From NCBI RefSeq assembly GCF_000379525.1, contig NZ_KB902532.1, positions 1 through 35,665 of the forward strand: a DNA stretch of 35,665 bases, given 5' to 3'. The stretch comes from Lamprocystis purpurea DSM 4197. Its GTDB lineage: Bacteria; Pseudomonadota; Gammaproteobacteria; Chromatiales; Chromatiaceae. A program made the position numbers and the translations under genes. The notes below the pieces were generated by a model that searched no databases, was not told the origin of the DNA, and saw only the letters and a list, made by a program, of their open reading frames with translations. Positions 3,811 through 24,797 of the stretch are shown here, piece after piece (positions within the stretch are counted from its first letter, which is position 1; every line of letters starts with the position of its first letter).

Positions 3811-5775
3811 GTGCCGAACAAGCCGTCGAAGACCCAGCCAGCCAAGACCCCGCAGCCCGAGCCGGCCCAGTTCAAGTCCGTCGAACGGTTGCTCAAGGAC
3901 GGTGACTACCAGCGGGCGATCGAGCGGGCACAGGTCCTGGTCCAACGGTTTCCCGATCACGGCGGCGCGAACCATCTGTTGCTGCAGGCCCTGGAGCGGG
4001 GTCAGAGTCGCGGCGCGGCGGCCCTGGCCGCGTATCAATGGGCGGAACGTCGGCCGCGGAGTCCGCGGGCGCTCGAAGCCTTGTTGCAGTTTGTCCTCGC
4101 GGGCCATCACCTCTTCTTGGCCAATCGCGTCGCGGACCAGTTGCGGGACCTGGGTGCTCCGGCCGGGACTGCGCTCTCCGACGCCACGAACTGGGATGCG
4201 TTGTTGGCACAGCCCGACGGCACGCGGGCGACCCGCGCGCAGATGGAACAGTTCGATATCGGCAGACTGTATCTGGAAGCCAATGATTTCGCGGGTGCCG
4301 TCCGGGCACTGGACGGTATTGCCCTCACCTCGGCCCGCAACAACCGGGCTTTCGCCTTCTTTCACCAGAACCGCATCGCGGAGGCGCTGGCGTGCTTCCT
4401 GGATGCCTGGCAGCACGACCAGGGTAATCTCTTCGCCCTGGGCTGGGCGTTGCGGCTGCGGCTGTATCAGGGCGATGAGACCGGCGCCCGCGCGCTCGTT
4501 GCGCCCTTGGTCCGCGCCGAGGCGCGCCGCATCGAGGATGCCTATGGTCAGCTCGCCGGCTTGCTGCTGATCCGGGAGGACCAGGCCGCCTGGGAAGCCT
4601 TCGAGCGTTCCGGTCAGGCGACCTGGATTAACCGTGACACCGGTCCCCTGGTCGTCGAACGGCTCAACCTGGGAGCGGGCGCCGCCAGTCGGCTCGGACA
4701 GGCCGAGCAGGCAGCGTCGCTGTGGCGGCAGATCCTGGAGCGCGCCCCGCGTCATGCGGCGGCGGGGGAGAACCTGGCCATCCTGGAACGGGACGGGGCG
4801 CCCTCGGCGCATCCGGCGCTGTTCGATTGGTCCCATGTGCTGCCGGTCGGCTGGGTGCAGCGATTGCGCGCGATGGGCCAGGCGCCCCTGGATGCCTACC
4901 TCGATGAGTTGAGCGCGACCGATTCCTATCTGGAGGCGATCTACCTGGCCGGCGAGGCGTTTGTACGTTCCTACGCCACGCAACTGTTGAAGCATCGGCT
5001 GAAGCGCGCGTCCCAGGCCGAGCCGCCGGCTGGTGGTCAGCCCGAACGGCGCGCGCCAGCCATCCTTCGGGATCTGGCCTGCCGGTCGGTCGGTACCCCG
5101 CAAGAGCGCGTCGCGATGCTGCATGCACTGCGTGAACACGGTCTGGTTGGGGCCGATGAGGCTGTTCAATACTGGAACGGTGCGACGCTGCAGGAGATCA
5201 AATTGGTGTCGACCGACATTTACCGCGAGCCCGATCCGCCCGATCTGCCGCCGGACCTGCAGGCCATGCTCGATGCCTCGGTGCGTTCGACGTGGGATGG
5301 CGAGCTGATGGCCGCCGAGGCGTATCTCCAAGCTGTGCTGGAGCGCGTTCCGGACCACCAGGCCGCCTTGGGCAACCTGGCGGCCATCCGCGTCAAGCAG
5401 GGGCGGGATCCGGAGTCCCGGGAACTCTTGCGTCGGGTGATCGCGGCGCATCCTGATTACTTGTTTGCCCGCGTTAACCTGGCCAGCCTCCTGATCGAGG
5501 ATGGGGATCTGGAAGAAGCCGAAACCTTGCTGAGCGGTCTCGGACAGCGTCCGCGGCTCCACATCCAGGAGGCGTTTGCCCTCTACGGTGTCATGGCCAT
5601 GCTCCGCCGCGCCAGGGGCGAGGATGCAATCGCCGACGCCCTGATCGCCAGTCTGGAGCGGATGGTTCAAACCGACCACGATCGGCAATTGCTTGCCACG
5701 GCCAAGGCGCGTGCCGGTGTGGGTCGATCTTTACCGGATGCTATCAGATCTTTGGCTAAGGCTTCGAACCCTTGA
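3811..5775 (+). CDS. large TPR-repeat protein of unknown function
   Basis: A 654-residue protein with no signal peptide or membrane segment, starting at GTG 3811; the degenerate paralogue starts with the same codon. TPR-type helices are clear at about 20-63 (LLKDGDYQRAIERAQVLVQ) and 500-580 (AEAYLQAVLERVPDHQAALG and two further units). The middle is helical and rich in Arg, Ala and Leu, with an ERAPRHAAAGENLAILERD unit near 310. TPRs are protein-binding scaffolds; no catalytic motif is seen. The intact copy follows a decayed copy and a TA module. The gene stands alone, and a hairpin follows at 5812. I do not recognise the family beyond the TPRs. Confidence 0.8.
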   Translation: MPNKPSKTQPAKTPQPEPAQFKSVERLLKDGDYQRAIERAQVLVQRFPDHGGANHLLLQALERGQSRGAAALAAYQWAERRPRSPRALEALLQFVLAGHHLFLANRVADQLRDLGAPAGTALSDATNWDALLAQPDGTRATRAQMEQFDIGRLYLEANDFAGAVRALDGIALTSARNNRAFAFFHQNRIAEALACFLDAWQHDQGNLFALGWALRLRLYQGDETGARALVAPLVRAEARRIEDAYGQLAGLLLIREDQAAWEAFERSGQATWINRDTGPLVVERLNLGAGAASRLGQAEQAASLWRQILERAPRHAAAGENLAILERDGAPSAHPALFDWSHVLPVGWVQRLRAMGQAPLDAYLDELSATDSYLEAIYLAGEAFVRSYATQLLKHRLKRASQAEPPAGGQPERRAPAILRDLACRSVGTPQERVAMLHALREHGLVGADEAVQYWNGATLQEIKLVSTDIYREPDPPDLPPDLQAMLDASVRSTWDGELMAAEAYLQAVLERVPDHQAALGNLAAIRVKQGRDPESRELLRRVIAAHPDYLFARVNLASLLIEDGDLEEAETLLSGLGQRPRLHIQEAFALYGVMAMLRRARGEDAIADALIASLERMVQTDHDRQLLATAKARAGVGRSLPDAIRSLAKASNP

Positions 5776-5811
5776 GTCTGGAAAGTCGACCACCGAATCC
5801 CGCACCGCCGC

Positions 5812-5839
5812 GGGTGGACAGCGCGGTGCTTGTCCACCC
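5812..5839. terminator. hairpin after the TPR gene
   Basis: A perfect 9-base inverted repeat, GGGTGGACA / TGTCCACCC, with a 10-base loop, 36 bases after the TPR gene stop. There is no following T-run, so intrinsic termination is only possible. The rest of the gap to 6186 shows no convincing gene; a long open frame enters it, but the ribosome-binding site favours the start at 6187. Confidence 0.4.
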
Positions 5840-6186
5840 GATGCCGCGTGGCCGAAACCGTGATCAAGACCGCGGATGGCGAGTGCCCGGCTGGCCTCGG
5901 ACGTGATCTGGTGGCCGCAGCCACGCCAGGCACCGAATCCAACAGGATCGCCGGTCACCACATATACTTGATGCGGACATCGTCGCGATCGGACACGGTG
6001 CCGTCGACAGCGTCGGCCGTTCCCGGTCGTGCCGCCGCAGCTTGTTCAGTCGCGGTCCGCGTGTCGGGCGGTGCACTGCGTCTGCCCGCCGCCCGGCACC
6101 TGTGTATTGATGGTACCGTCCGCACGGTCCCGACGACGCATGCAGCCGGCAGACGGCGCATGCGTCGGTCCGGACAGGAGGTCGCC

Positions 6187-6645
6187 ATGGTCGTGCTACC
6201 CCGCCCTCGGGAGCGGTCTTGGATCCCGGTCTGGATGATGATGCTCCTCGCCCTGTATGGCGCGCCGGGCCTTGCCGCCCGGTCGGGGGACGCGTGGGAG
6301 GCGTGCCGGGATCGGGTGTTTGCGGATCTGGAGGCTGCCGGGCGTCGCGAGTTCGGCGATGCCGGCGCCTACACCGGGGCCACCGGCAGCGGGGCGCTGC
6401 CGGAGGTGATTGAGCAATGCGGGTACCATCCCGAGCGGATCGATCGGCCTTTGTGCGACACCCTCTATCAACAGGTCTATTGGGACTGCCGGGAGGATGG
6501 TTTCGACGGCCTGTCGATGGCGGCCAGGTCCTGGGTCCTTGTGTTCGATCCCGACGGCTCCTTGATCGCGCGGCTGCGGCGTGTCTGTGCCGATCCCGCG
6601 CAACTGGGCCGGCCGTCCTTTGGTCGTCTGGTTTGCGGTGACTGA
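6187..6645 (+). CDS. small exported cysteine-containing protein
   Basis: A 152-residue protein; ATG 6187 is chosen because AGGAGG lies 6 bases before it. Residues 1-33 form a signal peptide: basic start (RPRERS), hydrophobic core (WMMMLLALYGAPGLA) and AxA-type end before RSGDAWE. The mature part has six cysteines (as in WEACRD, EQCGYH, PLCDT, WDCRED, RVCADP, LVCGD), consistent with disulfides in the periplasm. No known domain is recognised. It lies 3 bases from the end of the convergent SDR gene. Function unknown. Confidence 0.65.
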   Translation: MVVLPRPRERSWIPVWMMMLLALYGAPGLAARSGDAWEACRDRVFADLEAAGRREFGDAGAYTGATGSGALPEVIEQCGYHPERIDRPLCDTLYQQVYWDCREDGFDGLSMAARSWVLVFDPDGSLIARLRRVCADPAQLGRPSFGRLVCGD

Positions 6646-6648
6646 CGG

Positions 6649-7362
6649 CTACCAGGCAATCGCCTCCCCATGCCGGAAGAAGCCGCCGTTCGGGCCGTCG
6701 TCCGGCAGGGTCGCGGCCCAGACGATGCCCTTGGCGCCCTCCGCGACGCTCAGCGGCGCATCCGATCCGCCGAGGTCGGTGCGCACCCAGCCGGGGCAGA
6801 CTGAGTTCACCTTGACGTTCGTGCCCTGCAGTTCGTCGGCGAAGATGCGGGTGACGGCGTTGAGCGACACCTTTGAGAGCCGGTAGCCGGGGCAGCCGCC
6901 GTTCATGTCGCTGAGCTGGCCCATGCCGGAGGAGACGTTGACCACGCGCCCGTTGCCCTGCATCAGCGGAATCAACACCTGGCACAGGTGGATGGCGGCC
7001 AGGGTGTTGGTTTCCATGGCGCGGCGGATGGTGTCGAGATCCGCGTTGAAGATGCTCGACTCGGGACTGCCGGGGCTCGGGTCCGGAAAGATGCCGGCGT
7101 TGTTCACCAGCACGTCGATGCGTCCGAAGGTCGCTTTGAGATGATCGCGCAGGGCCTGCACCTCGGCCGGCGCGGTGACATCCAGGTGCCGGAAGTGCGC
7201 CTCGTGGCCCTCGGCCGCCAAGGCGGCGGCCGCGGCCTGGCCGGCGGCGTCGCGGCGGGCGGTGATCAACACCCGATAGCCGCGCCGTGCGAGCAGGCGG
7301 GCGGTTTCAAGGCCGAGTCCGCGGTCGGCGCCGGTGACGACGGCGGTTGGCATCGCGTTCAT
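6649..7362 (-). CDS. short-chain dehydrogenase/reductase
   Basis: A 237-residue classical SDR. The dinucleotide-binding motif TGADRGLG is at 10-17, NNAG at 87-90, and the catalytic residues are S145 (VNVSSG), Y160 and K164 (GYRLSK). The sequence resembles carbonyl-reductase-like SDRs (PGWVRTDLGG near 195), so it probably reduces a small carbonyl compound with NADPH; an Arg-Arg pair after strand 2 (TARRD) would suit NADP. A ribosome-binding site AGGA lies upstream of ATG 7362. It is the last of three minus-strand genes after the hydrolase and selO. The substrate cannot be deduced. Confidence 0.88.
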   Translation of the reverse strand: MNAMPTAVVTGADRGLGLETARLLARRGYRVLITARRDAAGQAAAAALAAEGHEAHFRHLDVTAPAEVQALRDHLKATFGRIDVLVNNAGIFPDPSPGSPESSIFNADLDTIRRAMETNTLAAIHLCQVLIPLMQGNGRVVNVSSGMGQLSDMNGGCPGYRLSKVSLNAVTRIFADELQGTNVKVNSVCPGWVRTDLGGSDAPLSVAEGAKGIVWAATLPDDGPNGGFFRHGEAIAW

Positions 7363-8248: not shown

Positions 8249-9700
8249 TCAGGTTCCGCAGAAGGTTTGCTGTACGACTTCGTGCGGCTGTGGCGGTTGC
8301 GTGTAAGGTGCGTGCTCGGGCCGCATCTCCCAGGGGCTGGCGAGTACCCGCAAGAGTGCGTCCAGCGGTACGTGGTCGCCGTCCACCGCCGCGTTCAGCG
8401 CCGCCTCGACCCGGTGATTGCGCGGGATCACGGCCGGGTTGGCCCGCCGCATCCGGGCCGCCCGCTCGGCCGGGCTTGCGGTCTCGCGTGCGAGCCGGGC
8501 GCGCCAGTCCGGCAGCCAGGCGGCGATGGCGCCACCGTCGCTCCAGCGGGTCTCGTTACCCGCTGCAACCTCACCCAAGGCGCGGAAGCTGTTGGTAAAA
8601 TCTGCATTGTCCGCGGCCAGGGCCGCCAGGAACCCGGCGATCTGTTCGGCATCGTCCGCCTGCTCATCCATGAGCCCCAGCTTGGCCCGAAAGACCGCGA
8701 GATAGGCCTGTTCGAACCGCGGCATGAAGGTGTCGACCGCCGTCTGGGCGATGTCCAACGCCCGCTCCGGGTCTTCGTCGAGCAGCGGCAGCAGTGATTG
8801 GGCAAGGCTCACCAGGTTCCACTGGGCGATGCGCGGCTGATTGGCATAGGCATAGCGCCCGTGCCGATCGATGGAGCTGTAGACCGTCTCGGGGTGATAG
8901 GTATCCATGAAGGCGCAGGGGCCGTAATCGATGGTCTCGCCGGTGATCGACATGTTGTCGGTATTCATCACCCCGTGGATGAAGCCGATGCCGAGCCAAC
9001 GCGCAATCAGGTCCGCCTGACGCCCGATGACCGCGTCCAGCAGGGCCAGGTAAGGCTGTTCAGCCTCGGCCAGTGCGGGGTCGTGGCGGGCGATGACATA
9101 GTCGGCCAGGCGGCGCAGGGCCGCGTGGTCCTCGCGGGCCGCGAAATACTCGAAGGTCCCGACCCGCACATGGCCGCGCGCTATCCGTGTCAGTACCGCG
9201 CCCGGTCGGGTGGCTTCGCGATAGACCGGTTCGCCCGTGGTGACCACGGCGAGTGCGCGCGTGGTCGGGATGCCGAGCGCGTGCATCGCCTCGCCGATCA
9301 CGTATTCCCGCAGCACCGGACCCAGCCAGGCGCGTCCGTCACCCCCGCGCGAGAAAGGGGTGCGGCCCGAGCCCTTGAGGTGAATATCGAAACGGGTTCC
9401 CTGCGGGTCCGTGATCTCGCCGAGCAGGATCGCCCGGCCGTCGCCGAGCTGCGGGACGAAATGGCCGAACTGATGCCCGGCATAGGCCATAGCCAGCGGC
9501 TCCGCGCCCGCGGGCACCTGATTGCCCGCGAACACGGCCAAGCCCTCCGGCGTGTCCAGCGCTGTCGGGTCGAGTCCGAGCGACAGGGCCAGTGCGGTAT
9601 TCAGTTTGACCAGCCGCGGACCGGCCACCGGCACTGGGGCCAGTCGCGCGTAGAAGTGGTCCGGCAGGCGGGCGTAGGTGTTGTCGAAGGCGAGGGTCAT
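8249..9700 (-). CDS. selO: protein adenylyltransferase SelO (YdiU/UPF0061)
   Basis: A 483-residue full-length member of the SelO pseudokinase family, which transfers AMP from ATP to Ser, Thr or Tyr of target proteins and helps redox-stress responses. Visible signatures are AMAYAGHQFGHFVPQLGDGR (70-89), HLKGSGRTPFSRGGDGRA (107-124, with the ATP-contacting Lys109) and HGVMNTDNMSI (242-252) followed by DYGPCAFMD (258-266), which hold the metal/base Asn and Asp residues. A cysteine stands three from the end (FCGT, C481), where many homologues have a regulatory Cys and animal enzymes a selenocysteine. First gene of a selO-hydrolase pair. Confidence 0.95.
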   Translation of the reverse strand: MTLAFDNTYARLPDHFYARLAPVPVAGPRLVKLNTALALSLGLDPTALDTPEGLAVFAGNQVPAGAEPLAMAYAGHQFGHFVPQLGDGRAILLGEITDPQGTRFDIHLKGSGRTPFSRGGDGRAWLGPVLREYVIGEAMHALGIPTTRALAVVTTGEPVYREATRPGAVLTRIARGHVRVGTFEYFAAREDHAALRRLADYVIARHDPALAEAEQPYLALLDAVIGRQADLIARWLGIGFIHGVMNTDNMSITGETIDYGPCAFMDTYHPETVYSSIDRHGRYAYANQPRIAQWNLVSLAQSLLPLLDEDPERALDIAQTAVDTFMPRFEQAYLAVFRAKLGLMDEQADDAEQIAGFLAALAADNADFTNSFRALGEVAAGNETRWSDGGAIAAWLPDWRARLARETASPAERAARMRRANPAVIPRNHRVEAALNAAVDGDHVPLDALLRVLASPWEMRPEHAPYTQPPQPHEVVQQTFCGT

Positions 9701-9715
9701 CCGCGGTTTGTATCC

Positions 9716-9913
9716 GATGTGTTCGAGGTGATGGGCAGGTCGCCGCGCTCTGGTCCATCAATCTGGATGAGAACGGAAATATCAAGCCGCCAATCGCTTC
9801 CGGACCCGGACGCCGAGGTCTTGGCCCTGTTCCGGTATCGGTTCAGTGTGGAAGCAGGTCGGCGGTTGCTGGAAGCGCGGCTGTCGGGGCCCGGAGCTAA
9901 GGTGATCGCCTGA
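9716..9913 (+). pseudogene. decayed gene tail between selO and the RES toxin
   Basis: Two frames give protein-like sequence: GQVAALWSINLDENGNIKPP at about 9733-9792 and, after a frame change, FRYRFSVEAGRRLLEARLSG, ending at TGA 9911-9913. Together they look like the C-terminal part of one former protein with a one-base shift. The family is not recognised. The 3' end overlaps the end of the convergent RES toxin gene by 17 bases. It could instead be chance coding potential in GC-rich DNA. Confidence 0.3.
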
Positions 9914-10364
9914 TCAGCCGCAGATCGGTGATCAGCAGCTGCGGCTCGCCGACTCTGATTCGGGCAAAATCGGGGTGTCGCGGATTGAGTAGGTAATTCG
10001 TCTCGGCGGGGACCACTGCGCTGGGGACGGCGAGTACGGCGGTGGTCAGCCCCTCTGCCCACTGGGTACCCAGGGCACGAAGGGCCTCGAGAGCTGCCGC
10101 GTCGCGCCAATCGGGGTCGAGTTGCCCGGTGGTGACCCGAGCAATCGCCAGGTCAGTCGGGACCTTGGCCGGGATCATCAGGTAACGGGCACGCAGGGGC
10201 TGGTCTTGGACCAGCATTTCCAGCATGGCCAGGGATTGGGAGCCGGCGGTGTAGACCAGCGGCACACCCTTGCGATTCCAGCGGCCCCCGTAGCGTCTGG
10301 CGCCTTCTCCGGAGAAGGCGCTGTCGGCAAAGCGCGCGGTCAGTATCCGCCAGACGGTGAGCAT
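9897..10364 (-). CDS. RES-domain toxin (NAD-degrading)
   Basis: A 155-residue RES-family toxin. Typical features are the N-terminal VWRI with R6, the GGRWNRKG motif (26-33), VYTAGSQSLAMLEML (37-51) with Y38 and E49, and the later VPSAV and NYLLNPRHPDF segments. RES toxins fold like ADP-ribosyltransferases; studied members deplete NAD by phosphorolysis or hydrolysis, or ADP-ribosylate a target. The start overlaps the antitoxin stop (TGATG), indicating translational coupling. The module is full length and presumably active. It is convergent with a gene remnant. Confidence 0.92.
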   Translation of the reverse strand: MLTVWRILTARFADSAFSGEGARRYGGRWNRKGVPLVYTAGSQSLAMLEMLVQDQPLRARYLMIPAKVPTDLAIARVTTGQLDPDWRDAAALEALRALGTQWAEGLTTAVLAVPSAVVPAETNYLLNPRHPDFARIRVGEPQLLITDLRLIRRSP

Positions 10365-10822
10365 CAGGAGAAAATGCCGTGCTCAATGCGCCCAAGGGTG
10401 TCCATTGCGCTCTCGGTACCAATGTCGGTGTCAAGCAGTGTCAAGGGTGTGACTCCGCCGAGCGCGGCATTGGGCGACTTGAGCCAGTCGATGGTCGCGG
10501 CCAGATCCTCGAAAACCTCTTCGCCGCGGGCAATCACCCGCGCCAGACGGATCACCCTGGATGACTCCTCGCTTGTGAGTTTGCCCTCGCGCTTGCGCCG
10601 CGCCAGGGTCCGCTCGGGGATGCCCACGGCGGTCGCCAACTCGGTCTGGGACAGGTGCGTGAGTCTGGTCAGGGCATCCACAGCGGACGCGGGAATGCCG
10701 CTACGGATGAGGGTCACCCAGTCAAGCGTTGAGCGAGGGAGGCAGGCCAGGACGGTCTGGCCGCCAAGTAGATCATTGACCGCAAGCAGCGACGGAGCGG
10801 AGAGGGTAACGGTGGGCGTCAT
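10364..10822 (-). CDS. Xre/MbcA/ParS-type antitoxin for the RES toxin
   Basis: A 152-residue antitoxin. An N-terminal arm is followed by an Xre-like helix-turn-helix (LSQTELATAVGIPERTLARR, about 57-76) and then the DUF2384 toxin-binding domain (SSRVIRLARVIARGEEVFED and LKSPNAALGGVTPLTLLDT, to about 132). The GG(V/M)xPLxLLDT element is the hallmark of Xre antitoxins that clamp RES toxins. It overlaps the toxin gene by one base. The operon is probably autorepressed. Its promoter shares the 10823-10938 gap with the divergent condensin-gene remnant. Confidence 0.92.
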   Translation of the reverse strand: MTPTVTLSAPSLLAVNDLLGGQTVLACLPRSTLDWVTLIRSGIPASAVDALTRLTHLSQTELATAVGIPERTLARRKREGKLTSEESSRVIRLARVIARGEEVFEDLAATIDWLKSPNAALGGVTPLTLLDTDIGTESAMDTLGRIEHGIFS

Positions 10823-14324: not shown

Positions 14325-14352
14325 TTGACAGCGACACTGTTTGATGTATAGT
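14325..14352 (+). promoter_or_regulatory. sigma-70 promoter giving a probable leaderless MerR transcript
   Basis: A perfect -35 box TTGACA (14325-14330) and a near-consensus -10 box TATAGT (14347-14352) are separated by 16 bases. The ATG of the MerR-type gene begins 7 bases after the -10 box, about where transcription should start. No ribosome-binding site can fit, so the mRNA is predicted to be leaderless. An imperfect dyad ACAG...CTGT lies between the boxes and could bind the MerR protein itself. Confidence 0.7.
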
Positions 14353-14358
14353 TAGGCC

Positions 14359-14898
14359 ATGATTGACCCACTCGACATCAACGCCCTCAGTCGTGAGACC
14401 GGCGTCCCCGTGCGCACCATCCGCTACTACCTGGCGGAGAAACTGCTGCCGGCGTCGGCGGGACGGGGACCAGCCGCGAGCTATGGCCCCGGCCACCGCG
14501 ACCGCCTGCGGCTGATCCGACGCTTGCAGGAAGCCCACCAGCCGTTGGCCACGATCCGGGCGCAGTTGGAGGCCCTCGACGATGCCGGCGTGGCCGCGGC
14601 GCTGGTCGAACCGGGCGCTGTGCAAGATGCTCCCGCGACGGCCTACGACTATGTGCGCCAGGTGTTGGGTCAGCCTGCCCGGCACGGCGAACCGCCCACC
14701 GGTGCCGCGCGACCGGAGCCCGCGGTCACGCCTGCACCGCCGCCAATGGCGCGGCAACCGCATCGCAGCACGTGGGAGCGCATCACCCTGCACCCGGATA
14801 TCGAGTTGCATGTGCGTCGACCGCTCGCCCGCGCCGATCAGCGCCGGCTCGACGCCCTGCTGGAGCAGGCGCAGCGGCTGTTCAGCACCGAGCCCTGA
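14359..14898 (+). CDS. MerR-type regulator of the ARPP-1/vWA/PARG gene
   Basis: A 179-residue protein. Residues 5-75 are a MerR winged helix-turn-helix (INALSRETGVPVRTIRYYLA, then RLRLIRRLQEAHQPLATIRA). A Pro/Ala-rich linker (100-133) leads to a short C-terminal module (STWERITLHPDIELHVRR, then DQRRLDALLEQAQRLF), not the long coiled-coil effector domain of classic MerR proteins; this module probably senses a ligand or binds a partner. The stop lies 88 bases before the next gene, which has its own strong ribosome-binding site; the two are almost certainly one operon. The ATG directly follows a near-consensus promoter, so it probably lacks a 5' leader. Autoregulation is likely but inferred. Confidence 0.85.
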   Translation: MIDPLDINALSRETGVPVRTIRYYLAEKLLPASAGRGPAASYGPGHRDRLRLIRRLQEAHQPLATIRAQLEALDDAGVAAALVEPGAVQDAPATAYDYVRQVLGQPARHGEPPTGAARPEPAVTPAPPPMARQPHRSTWERITLHPDIELHVRRPLARADQRRLDALLEQAQRLFSTEP

Positions 14899-14986
14899 CC
14901 AGGAATCCAGCCACCGAAACCCAACCGGGCAGGCGCCGACCCCAGCAGTCTCCGTCCGCCGCTACGACAACCTGAAGGAGACGCCC

Positions 14987-17900
14987 ATGTCCGCCATTGC
15001 CGAGAGCCTGTCACGCGTCGTCGTCGGAAACCCGATCCAGTTCCTCAATCTCAGTCTCTTTCCGCTGCTGGCCGAAGGACCGGCCCAGCCGGGCTATCGG
15101 CTCCTGGATGAGGCACTGGGCGACGGCGGCGCGCGCGTCACGGAGGTCTCCGAGGCGGGGCAGGTGCCGGAGTTGTGCTTCGTCAATCGGGGCGACTGGC
15201 CGGTGTTGTTGCTCGACGGGGAGGAATTGATCGGCGCCAAGCAGAACCGCATCCTCAACCTCAGCATCCTGGCCCCCGCGCACCAGACCATCATCATCCC
15301 GGTCTCCTGCGTCGAGGCCGGTCGCTGGCAGGCCGAGTCCGCCGAGTTCGGCAGCGCCCGGCGTGCCCACTTCGCCGCCGGGCGGGCGCGCAAGGCCGCG
15401 GACGTGAGTGATTCCCTGCGCCGGCGCGGCTCTCGCGAGAGTAACCAGGGCGCGGTATGGCGCGACATCGAAGAGCGTTCCCGCCGCATGCAGGTGTCCT
15501 CTCCGACCGGAGCCGCCGCGGCCTTGTATGAGGGCAGCCGCGCCCGGCTGGACGACTTCCGCGCCGCTTTCACCCCGCAGCCGAACCAATGCGGCGCGCT
15601 CTTCGCGATCAACGGCCGGCTCGTGGGACTCGATCTCTTCGATAGCCCGGCCACCCTGGCCGCTGCCCTTGGCAAGCTGGTGGAGAGCTACGCGCTGGAT
15701 GCCATCGACGCGGCGAGCGACGTCCGAACCCAGGCGCAGGAAGTCCCGGGTCCCTGGCTCAAGTCCATTGCAGCGGCCCCGATCGAGCGCTTCGCAGCCG
15801 TCGGGGAGGGCGAGGACTGGCGCCTGGTCGGCGACGGGCTCGCCGGCGGTGCCTTGGTGAAAGACGGGCGTCTCATCCACCTCTGCGCCTTCCGGACCGC
15901 GGCCGACGCTGACGACGGCGAGGCCCCGGACCCCGAGGGCCGCGAACGGCTGGGACTCACATTGGACACCGATCGCCGGCTGATCCGTGCCGCCGGTCTG
16001 AGCGAGCGCTACCTGCACCTGCGACTCCAGGCCCCGCACCTGAACGGCGAGCGTGCCCCGGTCGACCTGGCCCTGGCACTCGACCGCTCGGGGTCGATGG
16101 GCGGCGACAAGTGGCCGCGCGCCCGTGAGACCGCCCTGGCGGCCATCGACCGTCTCGGACCCCGCGACCGGATCGCCCTGGTGGTCTTCGACGACCACAT
16201 CGACACCGTCCTGCCGCTGACCCACGCGGGTGCCGGTGCCAGGGCCGCGGCCAGCGCGGCACTCGGCAAGATCGGTCCCCGCGGTTCCACCAATCTCGGC
16301 GAAGGTTGGCTCACCGCCTGCGGTCTGATCGGCCGCGAGCCCCCGAACGAGCGACTGCGCCGTTGCTTCGTGCTCACCGACGGCCAGGCCAATGTCGGCA
16401 TCGTCGATCCTGCCGAACTGGCCGTTCACGCCGCACAACTGCTGACGCTTGGAGTGCGCACCAGCACCTTTGGCATCGGCGATGACTACAACGAGTCACT
16501 GCTCGGGCCGCTGGCGGATGCCGGCGGCGGCGCTTTCCACGACATCCCCACCGGCGCGGACATCGCCCCCCGCATCGGCCGGGAACTCGGGGACGCCCTC
16601 GCGGTGGTCTGCGCCGATCCACGCGTGCATCTGTCCTGGGACGGGAGCCTTGCGGTCAAGGCCCTGGGTCCCTGGCGCACCAAGACCGGCGATCGCGCCC
16701 TCAGCATCCATCCCGGCGACCTGGCGAGCGGACAGGTGCTCGACCTGCTGGTCAGCGTCCGCTTCACGCCGGGTGCATTGAACGCGGATTGTCCGCTGCG
16801 GGTGCAGGTCAGCGACGGCGACCGGCCCCTGACCGCGGCCGACTTTCGCTGGACCTGGGTCGATGATGCCGCCCGTAAGTCTCAGCCCCGCCAGGTCGCG
16901 GTCGAGCGCCGGGTTGCCGAACACCTGGCTCATCAGGCGCGTTACGACGCCGCCTCGGCCAACCGCGAGGGCGATCTCAAACGGGCGCGCAAGACGCTTC
17001 GCGATGCCGCCAAACGGATTCGCGACTATAGCGGCAAGAATCCCGAACTGGTGGCCCTGGCCGCCGCGCTGGAGACCGAGGTCGAGCGTCACCGTGAGCC
17101 GTTGGGCAGCCGCGGCGTCAAGGAAGCCGTGTATGAGTCGGGCAATGCCCTGCGCAGCCGCGGGGGAAGCGGTGACCGCATCCGGGATCGAGCGGCACCA
17201 GAGGAACGCGCCCTGGCCCGGGTGGAGGTTCGCCCGTGCCAGGACAGTCCGGAACTCGCCGAACGCTGCCGCAAGCTGAGTCAGATCCCGCGCGAACAGG
17301 CGGCGGCCCTGGGCCAGTCGGCACTGGCGGCGATCACGGCCGGGACCTATTCCAACGTCGCCGGTCAGCCCGTCCACTGGGGTGCCGCCGTGGCCGCGGC
17401 CGTCGCGGCCAAGCGCAGCCTGCCGGCGGATGCCGTCCTGCCGCAGGTCGGGCCAGTCGGCTTCACCGTCACCCAAGTCCAGGTCGTCAACGAGAGCACG
17501 CTCGCCACCGCGCGGCGCCTCACGGCGACGGCCCGGCGTGTGCTGGTGCTCAATTTCGCCAACGGACTCCACCCCGGCGGCGGCTTCCAGCAGGGCAATC
17601 GCGGTCAGGAGAGCCTGCTGTGCCGCTCCAGCGCGCTCTTCGCCACCCTGTCCGCTGATCCCATGTACGCCGCCCACGCCGCGCGGCCCCTGCCGGACTC
17701 GACCGACTGGGCGATCCTCTCCCCGGACGTGCCGGTCTTCCGCGCCGCTGACGGCACGCCGCTGGACCAGCCCTGGCCGCTCGGTATCCTGACCTGCGCC
17801 GCGCCCTACGCGCCCAAGCTCGGCCAGGCGGCCGCTGCCGACCGGATGCAGACCCGCATCCGCCGCGTGTTGGCCATCGCGCGCGCTTTCGGCTACACCG

Positions 17901-18091
17901 GGCTGGTCCTCGGTGCCTGGGGCTGCGGGACCTACGGCAACGACCCGGCCCGCATTGCCGCCATCTTCCATGAGGCACTCAAGGAACAGGCCGGCGCCTT
18001 CCAGTCAGTGGTTTTCGCCATCGCTGACTGGTCGCCGGAGCGGCGCTATCTGGCACCGTTTCGGGATCTGCTCGCCGCCGGTACTGGCTAG
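14987..18091 (+). CDS. three-domain fusion: ARPP-1 + von Willebrand A + microbial PARG
   Basis: A 1034-residue cytoplasmic protein; ATG 14987 is fixed by GAAGGAG 6 bases upstream. Residues about 8-305 are an ARPP-1 (DUF6569) domain, with LLDGEELIGAKQNRILNLS and IPVSCVEAGRW. Residues 355-540 are a von Willebrand A domain with a complete metal site: DRSGS (D366, S368, S370), T435 (GSTNLGEG) and D465 (LTDGQANVG). Residues 540-760 are helical and basic (a typical vWA C-terminal extension). Residues 765-1030 are a microbial-type PARG domain (TIGR02452 type) with NFANGLHPGGGF (856-867) and LGAWGCGTYGNDP. The expected GGG...QEE signature reads QES (Q874, E875, S876), so the second, catalytic Glu is a Ser. 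ARPP-1 domains were linked by genome context to NAD and ADP-ribose metabolism. A role in removing or sensing ADP-ribose marks is inferred. Confidence 0.88.
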   Translation: MSAIAESLSRVVVGNPIQFLNLSLFPLLAEGPAQPGYRLLDEALGDGGARVTEVSEAGQVPELCFVNRGDWPVLLLDGEELIGAKQNRILNLSILAPAHQTIIIPVSCVEAGRWQAESAEFGSARRAHFAAGRARKAADVSDSLRRRGSRESNQGAVWRDIEERSRRMQVSSPTGAAAALYEGSRARLDDFRAAFTPQPNQCGALFAINGRLVGLDLFDSPATLAAALGKLVESYALDAIDAASDVRTQAQEVPGPWLKSIAAAPIERFAAVGEGEDWRLVGDGLAGGALVKDGRLIHLCAFRTAADADDGEAPDPEGRERLGLTLDTDRRLIRAAGLSERYLHLRLQAPHLNGERAPVDLALALDRSGSMGGDKWPRARETALAAIDRLGPRDRIALVVFDDHIDTVLPLTHAGAGARAAASAALGKIGPRGSTNLGEGWLTACGLIGREPPNERLRRCFVLTDGQANVGIVDPAELAVHAAQLLTLGVRTSTFGIGDDYNESLLGPLADAGGGAFHDIPTGADIAPRIGRELGDALAVVCADPRVHLSWDGSLAVKALGPWRTKTGDRALSIHPGDLASGQVLDLLVSVRFTPGALNADCPLRVQVSDGDRPLTAADFRWTWVDDAARKSQPRQVAVERRVAEHLAHQARYDAASANREGDLKRARKTLRDAAKRIRDYSGKNPELVALAAALETEVERHREPLGSRGVKEAVYESGNALRSRGGSGDRIRDRAAPEERALARVEVRPCQDSPELAERCRKLSQIPREQAAALGQSALAAITAGTYSNVAGQPVHWGAAVAAAVAAKRSLPADAVLPQVGPVGFTVTQVQVVNESTLATARRLTATARRVLVLNFANGLHPGGGFQQGNRGQESLLCRSSALFATLSADPMYAAHAARPLPDSTDWAILSPDVPVFRAADGTPLDQPWPLGILTCAAPYAPKLGQAAAADRMQTRIRRVLAIARAFGYTGLVLGAWGCGTYGNDPARIAAIFHEALKEQAGAFQSVVFAIADWSPERRYLAPFRDLLAAGTG

Positions 18092-18254: not shown

Positions 18255-19110
18255 ATGGACCACCGCCACCTGACCACCCTGTCTGCCCAGCTTGCGGCCT
18301 TCCTCGCCGAGGTCTTGCCGCGCCTCTCCGACCACTGGTGGCAGACCCACGTCCTGCAAGAACTGACCTTTCAGCAACGCAACCACGTCGACACCGCGGG
18401 CTACACCCGGCTCGACCAACTCGACCTGGCCGCCCTGCTGCGAATCGCCGACCGTAATTGGTCCGGCTCATTCAGGCTGACCGGCCCCGGCTGCTCATCG
18501 CCGATGAGGTCGGTGTCGGCAAGACCATTGAGGCCGGGCTGATCCTCAAGGAGCTTCAGGCCCGCCGCGAACTGCGCACCGTGCTCGTCATCTGCCCCAA
18601 GCCGCTGGTTGCCGAGCGCAAATGGCTCGAAGAGATGAAACGTTTCGACGAGCGTTTCGACCACCTGGACGGCCCGACCCTGCGCTACTGCATCGAAGAG
18701 ACCCATCTGGACGGCGTCTGGCCGCAGAAATACGCCCGCGCCATCCTGCCCGACGAGGCCCTGCTGATGGGCGACACCGAGCGGCGGCGCCCCCGGCGCG
18801 GCTTGCTCGGTCTGGACCCGCCGCCCACTTTCGACCTGGTCATCATCGACGAGGCCCACCACATCCGCAACACCGAGACCTGGGCCTACCGGGCGGTCCG
18901 CTGGTTCTGCGACAACGCCGAGGCCGTTGTCCGGATCGAAGCCACCCCCATCCAACTCGGCGACCCCGATCTCTACACCTTGCTCCACCTGCTTCGCCCG
19001 GACCTTTTGCCCAGCAGCCGCGAGCTCGCAAGCCGCGTCTTCGGCCTCGCGTCCTACTTGGAGTCCATCCTCGACCGCCACTTGTCCCAACTGGAGTGCC
19101 CAAGCCGCCA
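18255..19110 (+). pseudogene. remnant of a SNF2-type helicase with a Swt1-HEPN-like N-terminus
   Basis: From ATG 18255 the frame reads MDHRHLTTLSAQLAAFLAEV, then WWQTHVLQELTFQQRNHVD and LDLAALLRIADRNW, as in proteins that begin with a Swt1-type HEPN domain before a SNF2 helicase. At about 18460 the sequence jumps, with a frame change, into the helicase core: Walker A LLIADEVGVGKTIEAG, then LVICPKPLVAERKW and the DEAH box VIIDEAHHIRNTE. It fades out after DRHLSQLE near 19100, so the second RecA lobe is missing. Such helicases occur in defence islands. An internal deletion, a frameshift and a 3' truncation make it non-functional. The HEPN assignment is a pattern judgement. Confidence 0.75.
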
Positions 19111-19175
19111 CCGGGCACGCGCGCGGTGTGGCTCAGCACTTGACCACGGTCCTCAATCGTGGCGTCATTGGAACA

Positions 19176-19457
19176 ATGAACGCCAGAAAGCTCTTCGAGC
19201 GCCGTCAGACTTTCCGCTCCGGCCTGATCGAAATGGTCATCTGGCAACTCCCGCAGGCTGACGCGGAGCGCCCGCACGGGCTGAAGTACCGTTTAGTGTA
19301 TATTCGGGACCGGCAGCGTATCGTCGGTTATGACAACGAGCGCGGCAAGGGCGACCACAAGCATCTGGGCGGACGGGAAGAACCTTATACGTTCGTCAGC
19401 GTCAGGACTTTGCTCGACGATTTCTGGGCCGATGTCAGGAGCTTGACCGATGAGTGA
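19176..19457 (+). CDS. tumE: TumE-family toxin (DUF6516)
   Basis: A 93-residue protein with the TumE pattern: FRSGLIEMVIWQLP, then HGLKYRLVYIRDRQ, VGYDNERGKGDHKH and EEPYTFVSVRTLLDDFWADV. TumE proteins are toxins paired with the helix-turn-helix antitoxin TumA. ATG 19176 fits the usual family length; the ribosome-binding site is weak (GGA). The end overlaps the tumA start by 8 bases, so the two are translationally coupled. Here the toxin precedes the antitoxin. The gene follows directly on the truncated helicase remnant and may use an upstream promoter within it. Confidence 0.85.
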   Translation: MNARKLFERRQTFRSGLIEMVIWQLPQADAERPHGLKYRLVYIRDRQRIVGYDNERGKGDHKHLGGREEPYTFVSVRTLLDDFWADVRSLTDE

Positions 19458-19815
19458 ACGACGCATCCTTCGCATCGAGATCTCGACCCCGCAGGCCGCG
19501 ATGGAGGCGTTCGCGCAAACCTGGGAACGCCTGGAACGGGGCGAAGCCGTCACTCCAGTTGAATCCATTGGCTTCGAGAGCCTGTCTGAGATGCTCAGTA
19601 CCCTGACGCCAAGGCGTTGGGAACTGATACAGACAGTCAAACGCCGCGGACCCACCCCCATCGGGGAACTTGCTGAACCACCCGAGCAGGACAAGACCCT
19701 TGGCTGCACCGATGTCGGGACCTTGGTCGATTTAGGTATCCTTGAAGTCGACGACCGCCAACGCGTATTCGTACCTTGGGATGAGATCGACCTGCGGGTA
19801 CCGCTAGCCGCTTGA
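19450..19815 (+). CDS. tumA: TumA-family antitoxin (HTH)
   Basis: A 121-residue protein. The winged helix-turn-helix spans about 45-110 (LSEMLSTLTPRRWELIQTVK, then GELAEPPEQDK and GTLVDLGILEVDD), typical of the HVO_A0114/TumA group of DNA-binding antitoxins. The N-terminal 30 residues (LRIEISTPQAAMEAFAQTWE) are probably the toxin-binding part. It overlaps tumE by 8 bases in the order toxin then antitoxin, a known arrangement for this pair. The antitoxin probably represses the operon. A 154-base gap follows before the Mrr gene. Confidence 0.85.
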   Translation: MSERRILRIEISTPQAAMEAFAQTWERLERGEAVTPVESIGFESLSEMLSTLTPRRWELIQTVKRRGPTPIGELAEPPEQDKTLGCTDVGTLVDLGILEVDDRQRVFVPWDEIDLRVPLAA

Positions 19816-19969
19816 GATTACAGCATGCCAAGAATCAAGAATCAGTTATACCTGTGACCGACCGAGGCTCGCTGACTCGCGCGCCCGCGACTACTTATTT
19901 GAGTATAGTACTGCCAAGATACCGCCCCGGGCATCTATGATGCTTAAGCAATGGATCACGTAGCCAAAC

Positions 19970-21184
19970 ATGACCGAAAATCATCACGACCTAGTTCACA
20001 TCCCCAATCTCCCGAGCTATACGGAAGTCCGCAGGCTCATCGCCATCTGGACGGGTACGACCAGCCAAACTGCCGTCCGCGACATGGTCGCCGCGGTATG
20101 GGACCATACCGGCACGCCCCAAAATCAGGTCGATTGGAGCAACCCGGACGAATGGATTATTCAACGCCTCTCAGGCGAGTCCGCGGCGTTAGCTGGCCGA
20201 ATCTGGAAGGAAAGCGGTGAGACCATCAACCCCCGCTACCTTTACGGCGCTTACCGGTTTATCGCCACTTACAAGCTGCTGATGCCTGACAGCAGTGGCA
20301 TATACCGACTGTCCGACATCGGGCAGGCATTTCTCGACGACGATATCGCTACGGTCCGCAAAATCGACGAGGCCGAAGGCATCCCGATTCTACTCTCCAT
20401 CCTCGCCGCGCATTCGCCGGGCAAACGTGGCGATTTGCTCGAAGACTGGGGGAGTTTCTTGCTGGCCCATTCAACCTATAGGACTCCTTCGACCATCAAG
20501 CATACGCTACGTTATCGTATGCTCAACGTCGTCGAACGTGGCTACTCCACTCGGGCAGGTAATACCTACGCCATCACCGAGAAAGGCATCGCCTACGCCG
20601 CCGATTCGATCGCGACGTCGGAGCAGCATCCGCATCAGCGGGTACTCAGCGCCATCAAGAAATACAACGACGATCAGGTCACGGCACTCCGGGAGCGGCT
20701 CGCTAAGATGCATCCCTACCGGTTTGAGGCTCTCATCCGGGATCTCCTTGAAGCGATGGACTACGAGGACGTTGTCGTGACCAAACAGAGTGGCGATAAA
20801 GGTGTCGATGTGATCGCCAATTATCAGTTCGGCATCACTCAGATCAAGGAAGTAGTCCAGGTGAAGCGTCATCAGGGTTCTATCACCCGCCCGGTGCTCG
20901 ATCAGTTGCGCGGCGCGCTGCCCTACCACCAGGCGATTCGCGGCACGATCATTACTACCGGCCGCTTCGCCAAGGGCTGCACCGACGCAGCCCTGTACCC
21001 CGGAGCCGCGCCCATCACTTTGATCGATGGCGACAGGCTCATAGACCTCCTACTCAAACATGAGGTCGGCGTCAAGAAGCGACCCCAATCCCTGATCGAA
21101 ATTGACGATAGCTACTTTTCCGAGGGTAACGCCGGCACTGAAACAGAACCGGCCCTAGATTCGACGGAGGACATGGGGTCATGA
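19970..21184 (+). CDS. mrr: Mrr-type restriction endonuclease with N-terminal winged helix
   Basis: A 404-residue protein. The N-terminal 220 residues are helical with a winged-helix part (WIIQRLSGESAALAGRIW; GNTYAITEKGIAYA). The Mrr catalytic domain (about 245-375) has E253 (RFEALIRDLLEAMDY), D280 in SGDKGVDVIA and Q297-V-K299 in VVQVKRHQGSI, the PD-(D/E)xK metal site. LDQLRGALPYHQAIRG and IITTGRFAKGC are typical of the family. Mrr enzymes cut modified foreign DNA (type IV restriction). The C-terminal tail (380-404) is acidic and unassigned. Next to a TA pair and a helicase remnant, the context is a defence island. ATG 19970 is chosen by family-like start; no strong ribosome-binding site is seen. 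Confidence 0.92.
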   Translation: MTENHHDLVHIPNLPSYTEVRRLIAIWTGTTSQTAVRDMVAAVWDHTGTPQNQVDWSNPDEWIIQRLSGESAALAGRIWKESGETINPRYLYGAYRFIATYKLLMPDSSGIYRLSDIGQAFLDDDIATVRKIDEAEGIPILLSILAAHSPGKRGDLLEDWGSFLLAHSTYRTPSTIKHTLRYRMLNVVERGYSTRAGNTYAITEKGIAYAADSIATSEQHPHQRVLSAIKKYNDDQVTALRERLAKMHPYRFEALIRDLLEAMDYEDVVVTKQSGDKGVDVIANYQFGITQIKEVVQVKRHQGSITRPVLDQLRGALPYHQAIRGTIITTGRFAKGCTDAALYPGAAPITLIDGDRLIDLLLKHEVGVKKRPQSLIEIDDSYFSEGNAGTETEPALDSTEDMGS

Positions 21185-24356: not shown

Positions 24357-24797
24357 TTAGTGTTGCCAGCGTCCGCCGATCATCCTATCGATTACAGCAC
24401 TGCCCACGGCGGAGTAGTGCCGCAGATCGAACGGCGTCACCGTCACGTGCTCGGGCGGGATCGGGTTGGGATAATCGGGATGGCCAGCGTTGATCAGCAG
24501 GTTCCGCGCCGCGCCATCCGGGAGCGTCGAGGACGGGACCTGCAAGGCCAGGGAGTCGCGCCGATCCAGCCAGGCATTGCCGATCGCCTGGGTCGCCGTG
24601 GAATGTAGGTTGGAGATCAGCCGCCAGGTCGCCGGGAGGGTCGCCGGGTCCACCGACGGCAGGGTGCCGTCGGGAAAGGCCCAGGCCACCTCCACCAGCA
24701 GCAGTTCGGTGCCTATGATCTCCGGCAATTCGAGGCCCTGGCTCATCATCCCCTTCAGCCACTCCAGCGTCGCCAGTGCGGGGCTTTCGGCCCCCCT
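24357..24797 (-). pseudogene. 5'-truncated RES-domain toxin
   Basis: The frame is open from 24797 down and reads SPALATLEWLKGM, then LVEVAWAFPDGTLP, STATQAIGNAWLDRRDSLAL and the typical RES ending NLLINAGHPDYPNPIPPEHV. A TAA (24798-24800) lies just before SPALAT, so the N-terminal third with the catalytic Arg and Tyr is gone. No antitoxin gene is left. ATG 24749 could give a 130-residue fragment without activity. This is a different RES branch from the intact one at 9897. Confidence 0.7.

Follow-up and report, generated by a model that had tools for sequence, protein, structure and literature searches.

A MerR-linked ARPP-1/vWA/PARG fusion protein in Lamprocystis purpurea as a candidate ADP-ribose-responsive switch

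Introduction

What might a protein do that joins an ARPP-1 domain, a von Willebrand A (vWA) domain and a microbial PARG domain in a single chain, next to a MerR-type regulator? This question is raised by a two-gene locus of Lamprocystis purpurea DSM 4197, located in a stretch of 35,665 nucleotides (nt; RefSeq assembly GCF_000379525.1, contig NZ_KB902532.1, positions 1 to 35,665) that we refer to as the window. Our analysis suggests that the locus is most likely a MerR-controlled vWA switch accreting ADP-ribose modules, a variant of the predicted ARG/ARPP systems (PMC9503650), and that this real, recurrent and mosaic unit is probably regulated, ADP-ribose-responsive and of the conflict type. 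In its specific form, to which we assign a probability of roughly 40%, the locus would be a self-regulated MerR–vWA switch with fused ADP-ribose modules, in which the PARG domain serves as an ADP-ribose reader.

Domain architecture of the fusion protein

As proposed in an earlier note on this DNA, the unit consists of a 179-residue MerR-family regulator (P0002; 14359..14898, plus strand; Pfam MerR_1 PF13411 at residues 7–71, E 8.5e-13) and a fusion protein of 1034 residues (P0001; 14987..18091, plus strand) with no internal stop. The fusion gene starts 88 nt 3′ of merR on the same strand, and a Shine–Dalgarno-like GAAGGAG lies immediately 5′ of it. Profile searches recovered the three domains that the note had named, each beyond its Pfam or NCBIfam cut-off and all on the plus strand: ARPP-1 (15017..15892, residues 11–302; PF20208, E 1.6e-100), vWA (16064..16528, residues 360–514; VWA PF00092, E 1e-14) and microbial PARG (17315..18064, residues 777–1026; TIGR02452, E 1.8e-53, 181.8 bits against a curated cut-off of 50), the last also matching PARG_cat_microb PF10021 at residues 777–919 (E 4.5e-30). 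The post-vWA extension and linker (16529..17314, plus strand, residues 515–776) matched no Pfam family; in a tblastn search of plasmids, matches of P0001 to Deinococcota and cyanobacterial vWA genes extended to about residue 680.

The metal ion-dependent adhesion site (MIDAS) of the vWA domain is complete (D366, S368, S370, T435 and D465), in agreement with the earlier claim, and all five residues are found in 22 of the 23 MerR-linked vWAs compared. The ARPP-1 domain carries Q86 and C108, consistent with the conserved Cys and Gln by which PMC9503650 recognizes ARPP; the residues meant there were deduced from our own alignment, in which Q201, invariant where present, is an alternative. Of 21 ARPP-1 sequences aligned, 18 retain both Q86 and C108, and the diverged L062–L064 do not. 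The association of ARPP-1 with ADP-ribose systems, on which the note had drawn, is supported by the available part of PMC9503650. An AlphaFold2 model of P0001 together with its relatives L044 and L045 reached a mean predicted local distance difference test score of 34 and was discarded.

The PARG domain lacks the last glutamate of its signature

At residues 874–876 (17606..17614, plus strand), the codons CAG GAG AGC encode QES rather than QEE, a change that the earlier note had missed, and the loop reads GGG-X7-QES, departing from the GGG-X6-8-QEE pattern of catalytically active PARGs. Of 14 PARGs in an alignment from which fragments such as L073, L087 and L091 were left out, three have QES (the window, L045 and the L075 fusion), ten have QEE and one, L094, has QEQ; three of the five fusion proteins carry QES. 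The first glutamate (E875) and the diphosphate loop GAWGCGTYGNDP are retained in the window, and the domain matches the solved structures PDB 3sig and 5zdb with E 1.9e-39 and 3.8e-38, which we take to be those of Thermomonospora curvata and Deinococcus radiodurans, respectively.

Published mutants inform on this position. According to the accessible portion of one study, mouse PARG E748N and E749N are completely dead and the corresponding Q mutants have residual activity (PMC3897571), and according to that of another, activity of the bacterial DrPARG variant E112A was undetectable and its ADP-ribose affinity little or not changed (2.02 and 1.78 in the table; PMC6445106). Because the last signature glutamate is a serine in the window, at the position whose mutants (DrPARG E112A, mouse E749N) are inactive, an active PARG is unlikely here, and the domain probably is no hydrolase. 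Of the three-part ADP-ribose machine envisaged in the earlier note, the fusion of the domains stands, but a working PARG is unlikely. The ratio of nonsynonymous to synonymous change (dN/dS; as with synonymous divergence below, from our own Nei–Gojobori-type script) was 0.155 between the QES PARGs of the window and L045 (260 codon columns) and 0.204 between those of the window and L075; judged by these ratios, the QES PARG domain is under purifying selection. The window genome has no TIGR02452 match besides the fusion PARG. The QES loop, the purifying selection and the lack of a second TIGR02452 gene in the genome therefore point to a reader rather than an eraser.

The eraser reading, which extends PMC9503650, supposes that ADP-ribose put on host molecules by phage or toxin enzymes is removed, the vWA chaperone presenting clients, PARG cutting and ARPP-1 handling the sugar. 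It is favored by the naming of ARPP, vWA and ADP-ribose hydrolases in predicted counter-ADP-ribosylation systems (in the available part of PMC9503650), by QEE in the L044 and L079 fusions and in a second PARG gene beside the L075 fusion (genome G584), and by a gene run in genome G533 that combines ARPP-1 with an ADP-ribosylglycohydrolase and a WYL regulator (Pfam), as PMC9503650 describes. The PARG of the window, however, has QES, and its genome yielded no further TIGR02452 gene that could do the cutting, and we consider this reading rather unlikely for the locus. Directly downstream of the QES-PARG fusion of L075, a QEE PARG fused to Sel1 repeats was observed (L075 4672–8733, minus strand).

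The fusion recurs as a mosaic

A scan of genome contigs with six exact 8-residue patterns from P0001 returned two loci: L044, from an uncultured Thiodictyon metagenome-assembled genome (MAG), where the fusion is complete (best-matching segment 75%), and L045, from an uncultured Lamprocystis MAG, which matches residues 302–1025 on a contig that ends within the gene. In a set of 116 genomes from the same family, all three domains lie in one frame in L. purpurea itself, in G584 (locus L075, 59% identity over residues 1–1026) and in G662 (locus L079). A whole-fusion match was confined to the window genome among 274 genomes of the class (E ≤1e-10, at most two candidates scored per genome). ARPP-1 is sparse (4 of 299 phylum genomes, 0 of 14 control genomes). 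In a phage collection, 19 records match, with the PARG part only, and a scan of viral contigs with alignment A3 gave six loci in which only the vWA region matches. Chance was rejected given the full-length fusions in L044 and L075, and so was an assembly error, one of the outcomes by which the earlier note would have abandoned its reading.

The copies differ in ARPP-1. The domain is missing in frame from the 15th residue to about residue 302 in L045; L079 has an in-frame gap of some 80 residues in it, starting at about 181; and it is missing with other breakpoints in G634 (L086), where the gene has stops and frame changes. The three domains together are thus not required. The co-occurrence of the three domains and the MerR gene across genomes, which the earlier note had wished to see examined, holds in that the fusion recurs, but it is the MerR–vWA pair that crosses phyla, with ARPP-1 and PARG gained, swapped or lost. 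Synonymous divergence between the window and L044 is 0.24 in ARPP-1 versus 0.55–0.67 in the vWA, post-vWA and PARG parts, suggesting different histories of the fusion halves. In the PARG tree, a split with support 0.975 separates the window, L045 and the L075 fusion from L044 and L079, and the vWA tree places the unfused vWA of L081 among fused ones. Together with the split in divergence, these trees leave a single fusion event unproven.

A decaying mosaic, namely a locus without present function that sheds ARPP-1, a PARG residue and a third gene stepwise, would explain why ARPP-1 is lost or cut at different breakpoints in L045, L079 and L086, and would fit the broken G634 copy and the broken helicase gene beside the window copy. 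(Broken copies, namely the window helicase, L086, Synechocystis B12 and L082, were treated as separate pieces.) Against it, the 1034-codon frame is open, dN/dS is below 1 in every domain compared, and the merR promoter described below is retained next to upstream DNA that has diverged. Between the window and L045, dN/dS is 0.151–0.195 in vWA, post-vWA and PARG and 0.32 in the linker; between the window and L079 it is 0.147 in ARPP-1, 0.26 in vWA, 0.33 in PARG, 0.37 in the linker and 0.47 in the post-vWA part. We regard decay as very unlikely.

A tailed MerR is paired with vWA genes in four lineages

The unusual short C-terminal module that the earlier note had seen in the MerR proved to be a conserved tail (14764..14883, plus strand; residues 136–175, beginning RSTWERITLHPDIELHVRR...), with near-invariant E149 and no Pfam family at E 0.1. 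Its consensus, WxRIxLxPGLELHVR, is common to vWA-linked MerRs of four lineages. Across 17 aligned MerRs (alignment A1, 17 of 24, omitting four diverged Deinococcus, L082 and two VIT-vWA-linked sequences), Arg141 does not vary, and Pro146, Glu149 and Arg153 hardly do; the glutamate is retained in 22 of the 24 aligned MerRs, with Asp in Deinococcus ficus and Val in D. psychrotolerans. A further alignment, A2, comprised 12 tails. A tail-only search matched 9 of 398 genomes at E ≤0.01. The matches in the window genome and G175 are MerRs beside vWA, one (L154) was set aside as a histidine-kinase-like chance match, judged from its translation, and the remaining six score 17.5–19.9 bits. We define a vWA-linked tailed MerR as one with a helix-turn-helix (HTH), a WxRIxLxPGLELHV tail and a vWA gene as the next gene; the window has all of these.

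Tailed MerRs stand 5′ of vWA genes in Deinococcota, cyanobacteria, alphaproteobacteria and gammaproteobacteria. MerR, vWA and PARG are neighboring genes in Deinococcus ficus, MerR is followed by a vWA–macro fusion in Synechocystis PCC 6714 and 6803, and MerR–vWA pairs also occur in other Deinococcota, Picosynechococcus, Cyanobacterium and Haematobacter. In plasmids, P0001 matches 60 records and P0002 matches 24, the latter with the HTH alone; no match of either extends over 80% of the query. A Meiothermus MerR matches 22 plasmid records, and the next listed gene is a vWA in 14 of the 15 opened, identified as such by annotation and, for L008, L097 and L101, by alignment; in Allomeiothermus, a VWA-like gene (by annotation only) is third downstream of the MerR. 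In 299 phylum genomes we found 30 MerR loci, and the four best-scoring (E ≤2.4e-14, the window's own included) are the four beside vWA; the other 26 have no vWA gene inside the flank, some flanks being short. In two of these four top pairs the vWA partner is of a different, VIT-vWA-like kind and the MerR tail has diverged; one of these two tails lacks the glutamate. A second type of pair, a longer vWA protein with a short MerR whose tail is related but diverged, was also noted in L135 (C14 of the window genome), L076 (1795–4625), L084 (11107–13937), L066 (12310–15065) and L109, VIT being Pfam-confirmed in L076 only.

The attached modules vary and include PARG, macro, NUDIX, phosphatase, GmrSD and others. 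A NUDIX gene follows MerR–vWA in G624 (L081), the pair travels with a DSP-PTPase phosphatase in D. deserti, with GmrSD in Cyanobacterium HL-69 and with a nucleotidyltransferase–DUF86 pair in PCC 7002, and in two Deinococcus a PD-(D/E)XK nuclease is encoded two genes further along. In G584 the pair is followed by a sacsin-like ATPase (Pfam), and in G660 by a like protein. Very large sacsin-like proteins were observed directly after MerR–vWA in L076 (9354–17045; Pfam) and L082 (9770–16757; split between two frames). The macro domain of Synechocystis matches MacroD-type structures, with SDSGALS or SNSGALS replacing the GGGGVD of DR_2288 and MACROD2, a loop whose Asp is catalytic.

Metals or oxidants are the classical signals of the MerR family, and the locus may alternatively be a general vWA stress unit, whose MerR senses a metal, a redox change or a small molecule, whose vWA is a chaperone or scaffold, and whose ADP-ribose modules are incidental. 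Many MerR–vWA pairs lie beside transport, sacsin-like or unassigned genes, with no recognizable ADP-ribose partner, which favors this reading. Separate ADP-ribose- or NAD-type modules (PARG, macro, NUDIX, phosphatase, ARPP-1) nevertheless recur around the pair, and we judge the incidental reading unlikely.

A predicted leaderless promoter precedes merR

The predicted promoter (14325..14352, plus strand) has a −35 TTGACA (14325–14330), a 16-nt spacer and a −10 TATAGT (14347–14352) that ends 6 nt 5′ of the ATG, a distance that predicts a leaderless start. A −10-like hexamer lies 5–9 nt 5′ of the ATG across related merR genes, and its position implies transcription starting at or near the merR ATG. 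Of 26 related merR genes, 21 have an exact TTGACA 34–37 nt 5′ of the start. In three of these 21 (L076, L082 and L081) the start was moved by five codons to a downstream in-frame ATG, and another (L086) is a broken copy with its start placed one base off; L079 has TTGACA with one mismatch. TTGACA at 34–36 nt was seen in nine of the 588 genes called in loci of at least 9 kb. Seven of the nine are merR genes of the family (L096 and six of the 26), so that 2 of 581 others remain; since the merR loci are related, this count is not a probability, and it carries some overlap between loci and some starts misplaced by the gene caller. An inverted repeat at the window promoter was dropped as an operator, being not beyond chance (p ~0.18).

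A candidate ADP-ribose-responsive switch

In the reading we favor, MerR would repress its own leaderless promoter, and the vWA protein would contact the MerR tail, perhaps with E149 as a MIDAS metal ligand, as acidic residues are in integrin-type domains; the tail–vWA binding is a guess from co-occurrence. A PARG domain that lacks the hydrolytic glutamate and keeps the first glutamate and diphosphate loop could bind ADP-ribose or ADP-ribosylated targets, and this binding would alter the vWA–MerR contact so that operon output rises. An attack by phage or toxin may trigger the switch, through ADP-ribosylation or the breakdown of NAD, and ARPP-1 may process or trap released ribose or ADP-ribose. 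The broadest form of the idea, an ADP-ribose-sensing transcription switch running from a pseudo-PARG (a pseudo-macro in cyanobacteria) through the vWA metal site and the MerR tail to its own leaderless operon with attached defense enzymes, is speculative and rather unlikely to hold as a whole.

Several observations weigh against the favored reading. The QEE of L044, L079 and the second PARG gene of G584, together with the QEE of the adjacent D. ficus gene, implies that the reader role is not general, and the diphosphate loop of L045 is GCRTYGN, which may weaken binding. The vWA of L075 lacks two MIDAS residues (Thr and Asp), which speaks against a universal MIDAS–tail contact. The promoter spacing is absent from four Deinococcus merR genes, several merR −10 hexamers carry three mismatches, and an inverted repeat at the promoter reaches p ≤0.05 in 6 of 19 loci, the window not among them. 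The many pairs without a recognizable ADP-ribose partner count here as well. PARP14, the second-best solved relative of the Synechocystis macro domain, is also without GGGGVD.

In that broadest form, loss of the catalytic acid in two unrelated ADP-ribose modules fused to the same type of vWA would be a convergent conversion of eraser to reader. If the reading is correct, ADP-ribosylation would be tied to transcription through a vWA–MerR contact in four bacterial lineages. Readers of ADP-ribose have been well characterized in animals and are, to our knowledge, little known in bacterial gene control. The reading would also provide testable partners for ARPP-1 and the MerR tail, and natural allele pairs are available: QES and QEE PARGs, and fusions with and without ARPP-1.

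Relation to known systems

The predicted ARG-centered systems against viral ADP-ribosylation (Viruses 2022, PMC9503650) are the nearest framework; as far as the available part of that paper goes, they comprise ARPP, vWA, phosphatases, restriction endonucleases and helicases, with a Nudix- or WYL-type regulator in over 42%. The locus resembles them in its ARPP, vWA (a predicted chaperone there), ADP-ribose-processing domains and one-component regulator, and in neighboring phosphatases, restriction endonuclease and helicase. Unlike them, it has a tailed MerR instead of Nudix or WYL, and its vWA is fused to ARPP-1 and to a PARG that looks non-catalytic. Neither the unit (P0001 and P0002) nor any of 12 further window open reading frames scanned matched the ARG core (PF03747).

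Compared with the structure-solved bacterial PARGs (TIGR02452; 3sig, 5zdb), the domain belongs to the same family, with the first signature glutamate and the diphosphate loop retained, but has Ser for the last Glu of GGG-X-QEE and is fused to ARPP-1 and vWA. The Synechocystis MerR–vWA–macro loci (e.g. PCC 6803 pSYSA) share the MerR tail, the vWA type and a fused ADP-ribose-type module, but lack ARPP-1 and have macro in place of PARG; D. ficus shares the tail and vWA type with an ADP-ribose-type module adjacent, but lacks ARPP-1, and its PARG is a separate gene. The vWA–MoxR conflict systems, in the available part of their description (eLife 2020, PMC7159879), likewise join vWA to variable effectors, some of them NAD or ADP-ribose related. 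Membership in that group was set aside, as no MoxR ATPase was found by Pfam among the 12 window neighbor frames scanned, and the term MerR is absent from the main text of PMC7159879. We found no description of this MerR–vWA unit in the literature searched, which covered few subscription papers.

Neighboring genes

The window locus is followed by a HEPN_Swt1–SNF2 helicase remnant (18255..18787, plus strand; Pfam; DrmD-like in PADLOC), which lacks 577 nt present in L044, not a multiple of three (tblastn/blastn), and by a 404-residue Mrr-type restriction endonuclease (19970..21184, plus strand; PF04471, E 5.2e-29; PADLOC PDC-S02, E 2.1e-175). Together, the remnant and the PDC-S02 gene give this part (18255–21184) a defense-island look. 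L044 also carries the helicase gene, inside which its contig ends. Both were rejected as core members, as neither was found beside L075 or L079. P0001 had no match in PADLOC-DB 2.0.0 at E 0.001, and assignment to the MADS system through mad1 was rejected, the P0002 match being weak (24.8 bits over 31 residues) and limited to the HTH.

Upstream, a RES toxin/Xre-MbcA-ParS antitoxin pair (9897–10822, minus strand), of the NAD-acting type, lies 3.5 kb from merR, and a SelO protein adenylyltransferase gene lies at 8249–9700 (minus strand); a RES fragment occurs at 24357–24749 (minus strand). Elsewhere, in L088, L089 and L090, an ARPP-1 gene is followed by a conserved gene of 152 to 176 codons. L079 contains several near-alike genes (3826–7156 and 18359–18775) whose products start MDTLTPWHRLFGIALTDLF..., and a similar gene stands upstream of the L044 unit.

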